Below, in pieces: positions 17,254-31,746 of a stretch of 34,307 nt of DNA (its first letter is position 1; each line of letters starts with the position of its first letter). Under the pieces are notes generated by a model. It was not told where the DNA came from and did no database searches. It saw only the letters and a program-made list of their open reading frames with translations. Position numbers and translations under genes: made by a program. Origin of the DNA: Dechloromonas sp. (GTDB lineage: Bacteria > Pseudomonadota > Gammaproteobacteria > Burkholderiales > Rhodocyclaceae); assembly GCA_028689015.1 (NCBI GenBank), contig JAQTXC010000026.1, positions 1-34,307 of the forward strand, read 5' to 3'.

Positions 17254-17565
17254 GTGCGTGACGAACCCGGTGCCGCTAGTCGGGCGCTCCCGGCATGGTG
17301 GCAGCAGATGATCTCCTCTCAGCGTCGGGAGGCGCAGCGCATTCTGGCCGAAATGGTCGCTATCCGCGGCATCATGCCGTTGTTGATGAAAGCGCGTAAT
17401 GGGCAACATTGGACGCCGGAAGAACGGGCGGAGCTGAATGTTCAGCTGCGGCGGATGGCGCATTTGTCGCCCTATCTGGTTGTGATGCTGTTGCCGGGCT
17501 CAATGCTTTTTTTGCCGGCCTATGCCTGGTGGCTGGATCGGCGGCGGCTCAATCGCCTGAAGTAG
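17254..17565 (+). CDS. Small membrane protein with LETM1-like segment
   Basis: This protein has about 103 residues. The GTG at 17254 is preferred because GAGGCGG lies about 8 bases upstream; a TTG at 17248 overlaps the previous stop. The segment ERAELNVQLRRMAHLSPYLV followed by VMLLPGSMLFLPAYAWWL resembles the 'L..LSPYL....PG...LP' core of LETM1-like domains and includes one membrane helix. I place this only as a family resemblance. It is the last gene of the DUF883-YqjE-YqjK run, and its 3' end overlaps the convergent ampG by 17 bases. Confidence 0.68.
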   Translation: MRDEPGAASRALPAWWQQMISSQRREAQRILAEMVAIRGIMPLLMKARNGQHWTPEERAELNVQLRRMAHLSPYLVVMLLPGSMLFLPAYAWWLDRRRLNRLK

Positions 17566-18820
17566 CGGCAGTCGTTGAGGGTGCCTGCCAGGGGGCGACC
17601 TTGAACAGTAGCAGCATGCCGGGAACAGCCAGTGCGACGCATAGCCAGTAAAAATTGACCCAGCCCAGTGTTTCCACCAGCCAGCCGGCCGAGGCATTGA
17701 TGAAAGTACGGGGTACGGCCGACAGGCTGGTGAATAACGCCATTTGTGTTGCGGTATAGGCCGGGTGCGTGCTTTTGGCAATGAAGGCGACGAAAGCCGC
17801 CGTGCCCAGGCCAACCCCCAGGGCCTCACCGGCGATGACGATGGCGAGCGAAATACGTTCGCTGGCCCCGATATCAATAAAGTGACCTAGGCTGGCCAGC
17901 CAGACAAAACCGAAAATGGTCACCAGTTGCACTGCGCCAAACAGCCACAGGGCGCGGTTGATACCCAGCTTGACCATCCACAAGCCACCGAGCAATGCGC
18001 CAAAGACGGCCGGCCAGAGACCGGCATGTTTGGCGATCAGCCCGATGTCAGTCTTGCTGAAGCCCATGTCGAGATAAAACGGGGTGGCCAGTGCGGTAGA
18101 CAGACTGTCACCCAGTTTGTAGAGGAAGATAAAGGCGAGGACCAGTGCGGCGCCGCGCCAGCCCTGGCGGCCAATGAATTCGCTGAAGGGTTCGGTCACG
18201 GCCTGGCGCAGGGTTTTAGGTACGCCGCGGATGGCTGGTTCTCTGACTAGCCAGGCCATGACCATGCCGGGCAGCATGAAGGCGCCAGTGAACCAGAAGA
18301 CCTGGTCCCAAGGCAGGCGATCGGCCAGGATCAAGGACAGCGAGCCAGGAACCAGGCCAGCGATCCGGTAGGCATTGACGTGCACGGCATTGCCAAGCCC
18401 GAGTTCTTCGTCGCTCAAAATTTCGCGCCGGAAAGCGTCGACCGCAACATCCTGCGTGGCCGATAGCAGGGCGAGCAAGGCAGCCAACCACAGTACCGGC
18501 CAGATGTTGTGGGCCGGGTCGAGGCCGCCGAGCAGGCCGATGGTCAATAACAGGCCCACTTGCGTCAGCAGCATCCAGCCGCGGCGCCGTCCGAAACCCG
18601 GCACGTTAAAGCGGTCGAGCAAGGGTGCCCAGAGAAATTTCCAGGTGTAGGGAAACTGGATCAGGGCAAAAAAGCCAATGGTCTTGAGGTCGACGCCTTC
18701 GCTGCGCAACCAGGCGGGCAGCAGATTGAGCAACAGATAGAGCGGCAGGCCCGATGAGAAGCCGGTGAAGATGCAGATCAGCATCTTTCGGCTGCGCAGT
18801 GGCGCCAGCCAGGCCGGCAT
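17549..18820 (-). CDS. ampG: AmpG-type muropeptide permease (MFS)
   Basis: This 423-residue major facilitator has about 12 membrane helices. The AmpG family features are clear: the N-terminal FTGFSSGLPLYLLLNLLPAW, LIQFPYTWKFLWAPLLDRF and DVAVDAFRREIL. AmpG imports anhydro-muropeptides for cell-wall recycling and can affect beta-lactamase induction. The ATG at 18820 overlaps the metW TGA by one base (TGATG), so it belongs to the metX-metW-ampG operon. A TTG at 18823 would add one residue only. Confidence 0.92.
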   Translation of the reverse strand: MPAWLAPLRSRKMLICIFTGFSSGLPLYLLLNLLPAWLRSEGVDLKTIGFFALIQFPYTWKFLWAPLLDRFNVPGFGRRRGWMLLTQVGLLLTIGLLGGLDPAHNIWPVLWLAALLALLSATQDVAVDAFRREILSDEELGLGNAVHVNAYRIAGLVPGSLSLILADRLPWDQVFWFTGAFMLPGMVMAWLVREPAIRGVPKTLRQAVTEPFSEFIGRQGWRGAALVLAFIFLYKLGDSLSTALATPFYLDMGFSKTDIGLIAKHAGLWPAVFGALLGGLWMVKLGINRALWLFGAVQLVTIFGFVWLASLGHFIDIGASERISLAIVIAGEALGVGLGTAAFVAFIAKSTHPAYTATQMALFTSLSAVPRTFINASAGWLVETLGWVNFYWLCVALAVPGMLLLFKVAPWQAPSTTAATSGD

Positions 18821-19431
18821 CAACGGGTCCGTGTCAGGCGGTAAACAGCGAGGCTGCCGAGGAAATTAATGTCCTCATCGCGGGTCGCTTCGACTGGCTG
18901 GCCGGCTTCGTCGAGCACCTGGCGTTCGCGGATGCTCAGGCCCATTTGCCGGCACAAGGCTTCAAAATCGAGCAGGGTAAAGAAGCGGGCATTCGGCGTG
19001 TCGTACCACTGGTAGGGCAGATCTTCGGAGACCGGCATGCGGCCGTCGAGCAAGGCGCGCAGATTTCGCCAGTAGGCGAAATTGGGAAAGGAAACCACGG
19101 CTGCGCGGCCGACGCGCAGCATTTCGTTGAGAATGCCCTCGGTGTGGCGGACCGTTTGCAGGGTACGCGACAGCACGACATGGTCGAAAGCCTGGTCGGC
19201 AAAATCGGCCAGGCCATTTTCCAGATTGCTCTGGATGACGTTAATGCCGTTCTGCAGCGCCGCCAGGATGTTGGCATCGTCAATTTCGACGCCCCAGCCC
19301 TGGACGTTGCGTTCATTGATCAGGCGCTTGAGCAGCGAGCCGTCGCCGCAGCCGAGGTCGAGCACGCGTTGCCCGGGTTCCACCCAACTGGCAATGAGGT
19401 CAAAGTCGGGACGGTCGGGCAGAGTCGTCAT
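18820..19431 (-). CDS. metW: MetW, partner of homoserine acyltransferase
   Basis: This 203-residue protein has a class I methyltransferase fold ([15 protein letters not shown] near residue 23) and ends with the MetW-specific block [12 protein letters not shown]. In bacteria with metXW, MetW is needed for or enhances MetX activity in methionine synthesis. Coupled to metX through an ATGA overlap and to ampG through TGATG. Confidence 0.94.
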
Positions 19432-20558
19432 AGCGTGATGTTCCGCAGATAGGCCGCGACCACGCCATGGTAGTGCGCGTCTTCCATCAGGAAGGAGTCG
19501 TGACCGAAATTGAGGTCGATTTCGGCGTAGGAGACGTTACGACCATTGGCCAGCAGGGCGGCGACGATTTCGCGTGAGCGGGCGGGCGAAAAGCGCCAGT
19601 CGGTGGTGAACGAAGCCACCAGGAAGCCGGTTCTCGGGTCGGTCCGGCCAAGAGCCTTGACCAGGTCGCCGTCATCGAGGCGGGCTGGGTCAAAATAGTC
19701 GAGCGCCTTGGTCATCAGCAGATAGGTGTTGGCGTCGAAATAGCCGGCGAACTTGTCACCCTGGTAACGTAAGTAGGACTCGACCTCAAACTCGACATCG
19801 AAATCGAAGGAGAAGGCGTTGTTGCGCAATTCCCGGCCGAATTTTTCGCCCATCTGGTCGTCGGATAGATACGTGATATGGCCAAGCATGCGGGCCAGGC
19901 GCAGGCCGCGTAGCGGGCGAGTGCCGTAGTCGTAGTAATGGCCGCCATGAAAATCAGGGTCGGTCAGGATGGCCTGGCGAGCAACGTCGTTGAAGGCAAT
20001 GTTCTGCGCCGACAGTTTGGGCGCAGAGGCAATGACGATGGCGTGGCGAACGCGTTCCGGAAAGGTGATACTCCAGCGCAGGGCCTGCATGCCGCCCAGG
20101 CTGCCGCCCATGACGGCGGCCCATTGGTCGATGCCAAAGCAGTCGGCCAGCCGGGCCTGGGCCGTTACCCAGTCGCTGACCGCGAGCATCGGAAAGTCGG
20201 CGCCCCAGGGCTTGCCGCTTGCTGGATTGATTGATGAGGGGCCGGTTGAGCCATGGCAACCCCCTAGATTGTTCAGGCCGACGACGAAAAATTTGTCGGT
20301 ATCGAGCGGTCGACCGGGACCGATGATGTTGTCCCACCAACCGATGTTGCCGGGCTGGTCCGTATAGTGGCCAGCGACATGATGATGGCCGGATAGGGCA
20401 TGGCAGATCAGGATGGCATTCGACTTGGCCGCATTGAGCGTGCCGTAGGTTTCGACCATCAGGTCATAGGACGGCAAAACGCCGCCGCTACGCAAATGCA
20501 GCGGTTCGCTGAAGTGGAGGCGTTGCGCTGCGACGACGCCGACGGATTGTCCGGCCAT
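19428..20558 (-). CDS. metX: Homoserine O-acyltransferase (MetX)
   Basis: This 376-residue alpha/beta hydrolase catalyses the committed step of methionine synthesis, acylating homoserine. The nucleophile is S153 in [10 protein letters not shown], and the catalytic histidine is in [10 protein letters not shown]. Other family blocks are [14 protein letters not shown] and [13 protein letters not shown]. In betaproteobacteria with MetW, the MetX acyl donor is often succinyl- rather than acetyl-CoA; the sequence alone does not settle this for me. ATG 20558 has AGGAG six bases upstream. It is controlled by the SAM-II riboswitch and terminator in its leader. Confidence 0.95.
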
Positions 20559-20567
20559 GCTGCTCCT

Positions 20568-20604
20568 GAAAACAAAAACCCAGTTGGCTGAAACGCGAAC
20601 TGGG
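20568..20604 (-). terminator. Intrinsic terminator between SAM-II aptamer and metX
   Basis: On the minus strand, CCCAGTT (20604-20598) pairs with AACTGGG (20585-20579) around a 12-base loop, followed directly by TTTTTGTTTT. The hairpin lies after the SAM-II aptamer and ends only a few bases before the metX ribosome-binding site. This is the arrangement expected of a transcription-attenuating expression platform. Confidence 0.85.
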
Positions 20605-20607
20605 TGG

Positions 20608-20668
20608 TTCCCGTTTTAGCTGCATTTTTAAAAGCGCCCGCAATCAGAGCTCAAATCGGCGCTGCCAT
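20608..20668 (-). ncRNA. SAM-II riboswitch aptamer upstream of metXW
   Basis: The minus-strand leader contains the SAM-II hallmarks in order. They are GCGCC followed by GATTTGA, then ATTGC, the P1 closing strand GGCGC, and AAAATGCAGCTAAAACGGG at the 3' end. P1 pairs plus 20658-20662 with 20634-20638. Compared with the classic metX SAM-II aptamer as I remember it, the GAUUU, UUGC..GCGC and AAAUGyAGCUAAAA.GGG elements all match. SAM-II binds S-adenosylmethionine in an H-type pseudoknot and is usually found before metX/metA. Gene context therefore fits exactly. Confidence 0.88.
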
Positions 20669-20688
20669 CGTTACTCGGCAAGCGCTGG

Positions 20689-20717
20689 ACGATACCGAGC
20701 GGCCTGGCAAAAGTCAA
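20689..20717 (-). promoter_or_regulatory. Predicted sigma-70 promoter of metXW-ampG
   Basis: On the minus strand, TTGACT (20717-20712) and TATCGT (20694-20689) are separated by exactly 17 bases, giving a start near 20682. The SAM-II aptamer begins about 15-20 bases downstream. This independently supports a ~125-base regulated leader rather than read-through from the GGDEF gene. Confidence 0.65.
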
Positions 20718-20736: not shown

Positions 20737-22827
20737 CTAATTGGCACCGCGCAGGATGGCGCCTTCCAGCCAGGCATCAAAAGGTTCGCGCGGGGCGATG
20801 ACTTGCCCTTGAGCGTAGCTGACACCAAGCGTGGCCAGACTGTCGCGCTGGCTGAGATCATCGATGCCGTCGGCAATGGCATAAACATTCTGGGCGGCAG
20901 TGATTTCCAGGATGGCTTTCAATAACGCGGTCGACGTGCGGTTATCGACAATATCCCGCGTCAAACCGGGGCTGAGCTTGATGTAGGCCGGGCTCAGCGC
21001 CCGCAGGTGGTGGAAGGACGACAGGCCGCTGCCAAACTCGGTGAGGGCGATCTGGCAGCCCAGGCGCTGCATGTGGCGGCTGAATTCAACGATCTGGCCG
21101 GACTGGCGAACGGTGACGTCTTCAGGGAACATCAGGCACAGCCCCTTGCCGGCCACCCCTTCTTCGCGCAGGCGGCGGCCGATGTAATCGCTGGTAGCGC
21201 TGTTTTCCAGTGCGTTGCGTGAGAGCGGAACCAGGCATTTCATGGCTCGGCCAGCCCGGGTCGCCCGGGCCATGGCCCGGATGCCGGTGTCGACGAAGTG
21301 CTGATCGAACTGATTGGCCAGTTCGTAGCGTTCGGCGGCATCGATCAGGGCGCTCATCGCAATGGGTGGTTGACCTGGTTCATTAAGGCGGGCGCTGAGT
21401 TCGGCAATGTCACCATCCGGCACCTCCCGGTTGAGACGGCGGACGGGCAGGGCTTCGAGCATCAGGCGACCATCAAGCAGTGCCTCAGCCAAGCGGCTGG
21501 ACCAGTTCCCCTGATTTTGCCGGCGTTCGGGTGGGCTGCTGGCCTCGGCCTCGCATACCTGATTGCGGCCTTGTTCCTTGGCACGCTGGCAGGCGGCATC
21601 GCTGGCGCCGATGATCTCCTGGACGTTGTGCACCTGGCGCGTGATGGGGGTGAGGCCAATACTGGCGCCAATGCTGAAAATCTTGTCTTGCCAGATGAAG
21701 CGATAGTCGTTCGACAATTGGCAGAGATCATGGGCGACCTGACGGGCGCGATCATGATTGCAGTTGGCGAGCAGAATGCCGAATTCGTCGCCGCCCAGAC
21801 GGGCCAGCGTATCTGTTTCCCGGAGACGGCCGGCAAAAAATTGGCCGATCTGGCGCAGCAACTCATCGCCGGCCAGATGGCCGCAGGTGTCATTGACTGG
21901 TTTGAAGCGGTCAAGGTCGACGAACAGCATGGAGGCTTCTTCGCCACCAGCCTGGATGGTGTCGAGGACTTTTTCAAGGCGCAATTCGAATTCGCGGCGG
22001 TTCAGCAAGCCGGTCAGAGCATCGTGGCTGGCATGGAAGACGAGTTGGGCAGTTGCTGCCTCGATGCGGCTTTGCATCGAGTGCTGCATATCTTCGATGT
22101 GCTCGGCCATTTCGTTGAAACCGGCCTCTAGTTGGCGTAATTCGGCATGTGAGACCACGGGTACGCGCGTTGAAAACAGGCCCGATGACATGGCGTTCAC
22201 TGCCTGCGCCAGGCGAGTCAGGGGTTTGGCCAGATGGTCGGCCATGCGAATGGCGAGCAGTGCCATCAGGGTCAGGCCGATGCCGACCACGATTAGGCCG
22301 CGGGTCAAAAATTCACGTTTATGATTGGAGAGTTCGCTTTTGTCGAACTCGACGAAAATCATGCCGATTATTTCCGGAACGGGCTGGCCGGAACTCGCCA
22401 GGTCGAACAGCGGGTCGGTTTCGTTCTGGGTACGCAGGACGGGGGCGCCAAAAGCCAGCCAGCGCTCGCTTTCCCCAACCAGGCGGGGATGCTCAACGCG
22501 GTTGCGTAGACTGTCGGCAGCGAGTGATACCCGGCCGCTGACCGCCAGTGTTCGTCCCTTGCTATTGACAATGACCACCGCCTTGACGCCCGGCTCCTGG
22601 ATCGTGGCCTGGACCAGGGCGTGCAGACCGTCCTGCTGGCCGGCGATAATGGCGTATTCGCTGACCGGGGCCAGATGGCGGACGGTAGCCAGGCCCTTGA
22701 TGTGCATTTGTTCTTCAAGCGAACGGACGCCGCTGATCGTGAAGTACAGAACCAGGATCAGGGCGATCAGCGCGCTGGGGAGCAGGGTCAGCACCAGCAG
22801 GCGGTGACGTAGATCAAGATGTCTCAT
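20737..22827 (-). CDS. Membrane GGDEF protein with HAMP and degenerate EAL domain
   Basis: This 696-residue inner-membrane protein has TM1 (about 10-32), a periplasmic sensor (33-170), TM2 (174-194), HAMP (195-245), GGDEF (about 262-425) and an EAL-like domain (450-690). The GGDEF active site is intact at 345-349, and an inhibitory RxxD (RETD, 336-339) lies exactly five residues before it. It probably makes cyclic di-GMP. The EAL domain keeps EAL (458-460), but the metal and catalytic motifs are changed: DDFG is TEFG, K.D is KLS, and AEGVE is ADGID. It is probably not a phosphodiesterase. Its start overlaps the stop of the upstream periplasmic binding protein (ATGA), suggesting a sensory pair. 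Confidence 0.9.
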   Translation of the reverse strand: MRHLDLRHRLLVLTLLPSALIALILVLYFTISGVRSLEEQMHIKGLATVRHLAPVSEYAIIAGQQDGLHALVQATIQEPGVKAVVIVNSKGRTLAVSGRVSLAADSLRNRVEHPRLVGESERWLAFGAPVLRTQNETDPLFDLASSGQPVPEIIGMIFVEFDKSELSNHKREFLTRGLIVVGIGLTLMALLAIRMADHLAKPLTRLAQAVNAMSSGLFSTRVPVVSHAELRQLEAGFNEMAEHIEDMQHSMQSRIEAATAQLVFHASHDALTGLLNRREFELRLEKVLDTIQAGGEEASMLFVDLDRFKPVNDTCGHLAGDELLRQIGQFFAGRLRETDTLARLGGDEFGILLANCNHDRARQVAHDLCQLSNDYRFIWQDKIFSIGASIGLTPITRQVHNVQEIIGASDAACQRAKEQGRNQVCEAEASSPPERRQNQGNWSSRLAEALLDGRLMLEALPVRRLNREVPDGDIAELSARLNEPGQPPIAMSALIDAAERYELANQFDQHFVDTGIRAMARATRAGRAMKCLVPLSRNALENSATSDYIGRRLREEGVAGKGLCLMFPEDVTVRQSGQIVEFSRHMQRLGCQIALTEFGSGLSSFHHLRALSPAYIKLSPGLTRDIVDNRTSTALLKAILEITAAQNVYAIADGIDDLSQRDSLATLGVSYAQGQVIAPREPFDAWLEGAILRGAN

Positions 22828-31510: not shown

Positions 31511-31550
31511 GCCCGGCATTGTGGGTGAATCGGGCGTTGGCCGGCAAGGG

Positions 31551-31556
31551 TATAAT
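31551..31556 (+). promoter_or_regulatory. Predicted -10 element of the cobTS transcript
   Basis: A perfect TATAAT lies just before the cobalamin riboswitch, placing the transcript start near 31563. The -35 region is poorly matched. The position fits a promoter that makes an RNA starting with the riboswitch. Confidence 0.6.
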
Positions 31557-31564
31557 CCGCCGCT

Positions 31565-31716
31565 TCGATAAAACGGAATCCGGTGCGCGGTCACGCAATT
31601 CCGGAGCGGGCCCGCCGCTGTAATCGGGGACGCCGGTTGCCATATGTCACTATGCGGGGAGACAAACCCGCCGGGAAGACGCAGCCGGGGGACGATCCGA
31701 AAGCCAGAAGACCTAT
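31565..31716 (+). ncRNA. Cobalamin (B12) riboswitch upstream of cobT
   Basis: The conserved cobalamin-riboswitch elements occur in order: GGAATCCGGTGCG, AATTCCGGAGCGGGCCCGCC, GCTGTAATCGGGGACG, a GTCACTATGCGGGGAGA core, CCGGGAAG, and the B12 box region AAGCCAGAAGACCT. It lies between a TATAAT and an intrinsic terminator, ahead of cobT. It is expected to lower cobTS transcription when cobalamin is plentiful. Exact ends are approximate. Confidence 0.93.
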
Positions 31717-31746
31717 CGAATTTCAGTCACAGGAAGCCTATGGACA

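Follow-up and report, generated by a model that had tools for sequence, protein, structure and literature searches.

The leader in front of metX in the 34,307-nucleotide stretch of Dechloromonas sp. DNA analysed here (the window) very probably carries a SAM-II riboswitch that works as a transcriptional OFF platform and controls metX-metW and possibly the ampG gene that follows. The elements computed from the minus strand are collected in Table 1. RNA polymerase is assumed to start near position 20682, so that the aptamer would be made first. At low SAM the 3' strand of the pseudoknot (GCUAAAACG and the next 5 nt) would be free and would pair with the emerging GUUCGCGUUUCAGC; this antiterminator would form ahead of the synthesis of the terminator 3' arm and would lead to read-through into metXW. 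With SAM bound, we infer that the strand would be locked in the P2 pseudoknot, which would block the antiterminator, let the terminator fold and stop transcription. The switch is ordinary in kind; it adds one mechanistic clarification and suggests how two published observations could be reconciled with it. The clarification is a concrete antiterminator, backed by comparison and testable by mutations outside the aptamer.

We also consider it fairly likely that a wider reading holds, in which one antiterminator design, with the aptamer strand GCUAAARCG doubling as antiterminator, extends from alpha- to gamma-proteobacteria, the published metXZ element is the same switch, and the SAM-II half of SAM-II/SAM-V tandems is read only during transcription. 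If so, terminators of differing sequence would each bear the complement of GCUAAARCG in the loop, and the same helix, with 9 of 9 pairs in the tandems, would stop the finished RNA from binding SAM at SAM-II.

Table 1. Elements of the leader and the genes behind it, with positions in the window.
Feature	Positions	Strand	Details
Sigma-70-type promoter	20689-20717	-	TTGACT 20717-20712, 17-nt spacer, TATCGT 20694-20689
Extra 5' stem-loop (P0)	20663-20685	-	Between start site and P1; genus feature
SAM-II aptamer	about 20607-20668	-	RF00521 match; genus model R1; pair counts
Aptamer P1	20662-20658 with 20638-20634	-	
Aptamer P2 pseudoknot, 3' strand	within 20620-20612	-	
Antiterminator 5' arm, GCUAAAACGGGAAC	20607-20620	-	Overlaps aptamer P2 3' strand
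Antiterminator 3' arm, GUUCGCGUUUCAGC	20587-20600	-	Overlaps top of terminator 5' arm and loop
Intrinsic terminator	20569-20605	-	Arms 20605-20598 and 20585-20578; U tract 20577-20569
metX RBS, AGGAG	20563-20567	-	Read from sequence; abuts end of U tract
metX	19428-20558	-	Homoserine O-succinyltransferase MetX (NF047916)
metW	18820-19431	-	4-nt overlap with metX
ampG	17549-18823	-	ampG-family muropeptide transporter (TIGR00901); start overlaps metW stop; order conserved

The SAM-II aptamer

The covariance model RF00521 (SAM_alpha, SAM-II family) matched positions 20599-20672 of the minus strand with 31.3 bits and an E value of 1.1e-5 in 201 bases. The sequence-only reading had proposed a SAM-II aptamer here and a covariance-model search as the check: the E value speaks for the assignment, while the score lies below the gathering threshold of 36. 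At that threshold Rfam gave no match to the leader; RF01726 scored 17.9 bits (gathering 44), and no SAM-V match was found in the window by Rfam. The same pattern is seen in relatives, with RF00521 matching 29 of 60 genomes of the genus (2 above gathering); in the family it matched 165 of 297 at E <= 0.005 (53 of the 297 above gathering). Annotation based on the cut-off would pass over the window and the majority of the beta-proteobacterial leaders given to Rfam.

A genus model (R1), built from an alignment (A3) of 19 leaders of the window's type, matched the window at 20607-20667 with 84.5 bits, the window itself being among the training sequences. R1 matched 55 of the 60 genus genomes, among them every one of the 41 with a completeness of 90% or more and a contamination of 5% or less. 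As 17 of the 19 training sequences were drawn from the 60 genomes, the independent matches number 38 in the other 43, one of them weak (G032, 28.9 bits). All 24 distinct leaders of the genus (30 loci) have a metX start within 150 nt of the core, and all 24 have a terminator behind the aptamer. We take the window's own genome to hold one SAM-II copy, with one R1 match and only weak further RF00521 hits. The next of these (L210, 22.1 bits) was rejected as a second copy; it sits within a dnaK-like reading frame.

Pair counts were made on alignment A2 with 20 leaders, obtained from the 26 of A1 by removing six rows with loop insertions (L011, L015, L018, L021, L022 and L062); A1 itself was not used for counting. 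P1 is paired in 100% of cells in all 20 leaders, with five of its six pairs invariant. Three of the four P2 pairs, as assigned from our alignment and not from a solved structure, are present and invariant in 20 of 20, and the fourth is C-G in 7 and nonstandard in 13. Since the aptamer helices are nearly invariant, P1 and P2 give no covariation support. The element shares with SAM-II the P1 stem, the P2 pseudoknot, the GATTT / TTGC / GCTAAA core, a promoter just upstream, a terminator downstream of the aptamer and methionine genes behind it. It differs in its score under gathering, in the extra 5' stem-loop of the genus and in the one P2 position that is mostly A opposite A in the genus.

A pattern scan of genome contigs gave at least 119 stretches, and together with the RF00521 loci the combined set comprises at least 179 loci, at least 197 motif hits and at least 143 hits with a terminator. 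By tblastn, metX follows 50 of 197 hits (among the matches listed), and metZ, metY, metK and metH lie behind the 9 other motif loci checked. SAM-II occurs ahead of metK in L097 and L138 and ahead of metH in L152. Five loci (L049, L075, L088, L098 and L110) have two SAM-II-like cores in series, about 110-140 nt apart.

Promoter, terminator and antiterminator

Both the 17-spaced promoter pair and the intrinsic terminator ahead of the metX RBS, which the sequence-only reading had described, were recovered. As a bare consensus match the promoter is at chance level (1 found against 1.3 expected), and it is its conservation that speaks for it: TTGAC[AT]-17-TAT[CT][GT]T recurs at the corresponding position in all 19 leaders of the window's type. 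When the best pair of each leader was picked by score, its spacer measured 17 nt in 30 of the 33 listed. The start site near 20682 was placed from the position of the -10 element. The P0 stem-loop that would follow it has a mean z of -2.3 over 19 genus leaders, the window's own copy being weak (z +0.33); by eye, its stem sequences vary among the leaders in a manner that keeps the pairs. P0 may shield the 5' end of the RNA or insulate P1.

The terminator has a folding energy of -14.7 kcal/mol (z -5.8, with 0 of 200 shuffles as stable) and a U4-G-U4 tail. It was not listed by the consensus scanner, probably because the loop limit of the scanner is 8 nt.

The pairing of GCTAAAACG (20620-20612) with CGTTTCAGC (20595-20587) at 8 of 9 positions, on which the sequence-only reading had based its antiterminator, is present and forms part of a longer helix in which GCUAAAACGGGAAC and GUUCGCGUUUCAGC pair at 12 of 14 positions. 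This helix has -13.3 kcal/mol (z -3.9, with 1 of 200 shuffles as stable). It absorbs part of the terminator 5' arm and places CCCA in its own loop. The GGG/CCC pairing that had been proposed as an addition was dropped, as it yields -4.6 kcal/mol compared with the -13.3 of the best helix.

The leader was then treated as a growing RNA from the assumed start, by a program that handles no pseudoknots, and the SAM-bound state was imposed by barring the aptamer bases from pairing. In the unconstrained RNA the computed antiterminator probability is 0.85-0.87 at lengths of 97-103 nt and 0.71-0.77 at 109-111 nt; at 105-107 nt antiterminator and terminator are about even (0.34 to 0.49, 0.41 to 0.42). 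With the aptamer bases barred, the terminator reaches 0.97 at 105-119 nt, so this comparison, which had been put forward as a check, came out in favour of the switch. At equilibrium the terminator wins from about 113 nt on, and the switch would thus have to be kinetic. As the most recently made bases are still inside the polymerase, the choice would be made at a stage when the antiterminator is ahead.

Once read-through RNA is complete, a further partner for the aptamer strand is the U tract together with some of the RBS (20563-20620, minus strand), a possible second effect on translation.

Paired changes within the genus

Within A2, 94.4% of the antiterminator cells and 100% of the terminator cells are paired. 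Two antiterminator pairs are changed on both sides, in 11 cells, and three terminator pairs in 12 cells, and in neither case did any of 500 shuffles reach as many cells. The number of double-changed pairs as such is at shuffle level (2 reached by 214 of 500 for the antiterminator, 3 by 89 of 500 for the terminator), and a one-column shift of the antiterminator partner leaves two double-changed pairs, in 7 cells. Alignment column 78 is shared by the two helices: with column 66 in the antiterminator it reads A-U in 10 leaders, G-C in 7 and G-U in 3, and with column 93 in the terminator U-A in 11, C-G in 7 and U-G in 2. In the aligned leaders the shared base thus changes along with both its partners. 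In a swap test, cognate strands paired better than exchanged ones (mean -12.66 versus -11.69 kcal/mol), and none of 5000 permutations gave so low a value; taken alone, the extension past the core showed no cognate preference (1100 of 5000 permutations).

These paired changes among relatives agree with the mutually exclusive antiterminator, made from the 3' strand of the aptamer, that had been predicted from the sequence, with a comparison for covariation among the checks put forward. The paired-change and swap statistics ignore the relatedness of the leaders, and the changes may stem from one or two events on the tree.

The antiterminator is absent from the best fold in 5 of the 24 distinct genus leaders, all of them among the 8 with a loop of 26-27 nt. 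When it is forced in these five, with a distal copy of the strand as partner, between 7 and 11 of the 14 positions pair, at energies of -6.8, -9.5, -1.0, -6.8 and +4.7 kcal/mol.

Comparison across Proteobacteria

For the wider comparison, 127 distinct leaders were tested of the 143 with terminators, after exclusion of duplicates, of leaders whose terminator is over 70 nt distant, of those with a different core and of those whose region was too short. The complement of GCTAAARCG was sought in the terminator 5' arm, the loop or the upper 3' arm. This region was the second definition tried; the first, clipped too short, gave little signal in the window's genus. With the second definition, a 9 of 9 complement was found in 24 of the 127 leaders (shuffle mean 0.06, maximum 1 in 300 rounds), at least 8 pairs in 42 (mean 1.5, maximum 7) and at least 7 pairs in 71 (mean 14.8, maximum 24), all counted among the matches listed. 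The 44 other terminators in the same loci, taken as control, gave 0, 3 and 12, respectively. The leaders with 9 of 9, among the matches listed, include Pelagibacteraceae (L031, L036), Methylotenera (L044), Halomonas (L049), Sedimenticola (L108) and a Rhodocyclaceae genome (L033). The seventh position of the core is A or G. At sites with at least 7 pairs, A faces T in 14 of 15; of the 56 sites with G, 36 have C opposite and 15 have T. When 125 distinct leaders (of 137) were folded to just before closure of the terminator, the core was paired at a mean of 0.67, compared with 0.40 for shuffled sequences; 46% of the 125 individually reached p <= 0.05 and 54% did not.

That aptamer strand and terminator loop are complementary by chance, or through shared descent without function, would be in line with the close relatedness of the genus leaders, with the missing cognate preference of the extension and with the more than half of the wider leaders that show no individual excess. 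We nevertheless regard it as very improbable, as neither the excess of complete complements over shuffles nor their absence from the control terminators is expected from it, and the 9 of 9 set includes named members of the alpha-, beta- and gamma-proteobacteria whose terminator stems are not alike.

The aptamer could instead act on translation, with the hairpin serving as a constitutive attenuator. Such an arrangement is reported, in the part of Scheuer 2022 (PMC9373788) that deals with it, behind the SAM-II element of S. meliloti metA, and the further pairing of the aptamer strand described above, which takes in the U tract and some of the RBS, could fit it. The RBS, however, is separated from the aptamer by about 40 nt and lies outside P2, and terminators behind SAM-II complement the aptamer strand far above chance, with changes that go together with those of the strand. 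We therefore find this explanation unlikely, and the transcriptional OFF switch is preferred.

Relation to published SAM-II work and the metXZ element

Transcriptional control by SAM-II had been thought unusual in the sequence-only reading, a view that does not hold against passages in three earlier papers. Corbino 2005 (PMC1273637) noted putative intrinsic terminators behind many SAM-II elements, and Barrick & Breaker 2007 describe SAM-II as mostly linked to terminators in alpha- and beta-proteobacteria, by a mechanism without experimental proof. The third, Leyn 2014 (PMC4239095), is treated below. For S. meliloti metZ SAM-II, the relevant section of Scheuer 2022 (PMC9373788) predicts SAM-dependent termination, with a terminator that forms upon SAM binding as proposed for the window, and an RNA of about 100 nt that fits termination was detected there; gene and taxon are different from ours.

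According to its text, Leyn 2014 (PMC4239095) describes metXZ as a terminator/antiterminator element of 35 beta-proteobacterial genomes that precedes metXW (in 30 of them) or metZ, and does not recognise it as SAM-II; by Rfam profiles, SAM_alpha is there confined to two alpha-proteobacterial orders. The likeness to the window, judged from that text and not from the alignment figures, lies in the place before metXW (for Methylophilales and Nitrosospira, before metZ), in a possible pseudoknot, in the terminator that follows and in a suspected antiterminator. The two accounts differ in the antiterminator itself, for which the GC-rich regions 3 and 4 are suggested in the text of Leyn 2014, whereas here it is the strand GCUAAARCG. 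The leader in the window has the placement of metXZ, upstream of metXW and with a terminator behind.

Before metZ, the SAM-II core was found by pattern in Methylotenera, Methylophilales HTCC2181, Nitrosospira and Novimethylophilus. The Novimethylophilus leader (L034) scored 36.9 bits with RF00521 and was the only one above gathering among 9 loci given to Rfam. Four of five genomes reached through such loci matched at E <= 0.01, none of them over gathering, with 29.4 bits for HTCC2181 (E 5.7e-5 per genome) and 32.1 bits for Nitrosospira (E 2.8e-5); the Methylotenera genome (L044) had no RF00521 match at E <= 0.01. Among metX leaders of the family, L151 (45.7 bits), L155 (44.0), L169 (42.3) and L175 (39.2) are above gathering.

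These comparisons of sequence suggest that metXZ and SAM-II are probably the same element, and the low RF00521 scores would explain why metXZ was taken for a new one. SAM would then be the probable ligand of a beta-proteobacterial element that was described without one. A separate RNA class with another ligand seems hardly plausible: it was published as a new element (in the portion of PMC4239095 considered here), and the window and most other beta-proteobacterial leaders tested do score under gathering, but the four metX leaders and L034 pass the threshold, the HTCC2181 and Nitrosospira metZ leaders match at low E values, and P1 and three of the four P2 pairs are retained throughout A2.

Among the papers brought up by the literature searches, judged by listings and main text, none was seen that identifies metXZ with SAM-II or reports the present antiterminator. 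Possibly new are thus metXZ as SAM-II, the identity of the antiterminator strand with the pseudoknot 3' strand, and the pairing behind the SAM-insensitivity of tandems.

SAM-II/SAM-V tandems

The original SAM-V paper is reportedly that of Poiata in 2009. In seven loci with a 9 of 9 complement and a Pelagibacter-type terminator (L031, L036, L113, L117, L124, L132 and L133), SAM-V (RF01826) lies behind SAM-II in 7 of 7; two of these loci are from Pelagibacteraceae, and three precede a homocysteine S-methyltransferase gene of the bhmT type. In the read-through RNA of all seven, the SAM-II strand pairs with the downstream linker (CGCUUUAGC) at a probability of 0.86-1.00. The order of SAM-II and terminator is that of the window, and the loop pairs with the aptamer strand at 9 of 9 positions; the window differs from the tandems in having no SAM-V match.

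According to a review of tandem riboswitches (PMC9481103), a terminator follows SAM-II in the 120 SAM-II/SAM-V tandems originally described. Feng 2024 (PMC11508383) reports, in the section relevant here, that the SAM-II half of the full tandem RNA is unresponsive to SAM, which is called somewhat puzzling, and that oligonucleotides to the linker largely restore the response. The antiterminator helix could account for this behaviour, as judged from the seven loci studied here, which do not include the exact leader used in that work.

Genes behind the leader

Of 20 genus genomes fetched, 19 have ampG 3' of metW and on its strand, directly adjoining it in 18 and separated by about 240 nt in L215; in L217 the ampG match reaches only 36% and is on the opposite strand. 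Judged by this synteny, co-transcription of metX, metW and ampG is plausible, and ampG would then come under SAM control, as the wider claim for the locus has it.

Immediately upstream of the leader lies a gene for a GGDEF/EAL-type protein (20737-22827, minus strand). The window also holds a cobalamin riboswitch (RF00174, 73.1 bits) at 31514-31734 on the plus strand.
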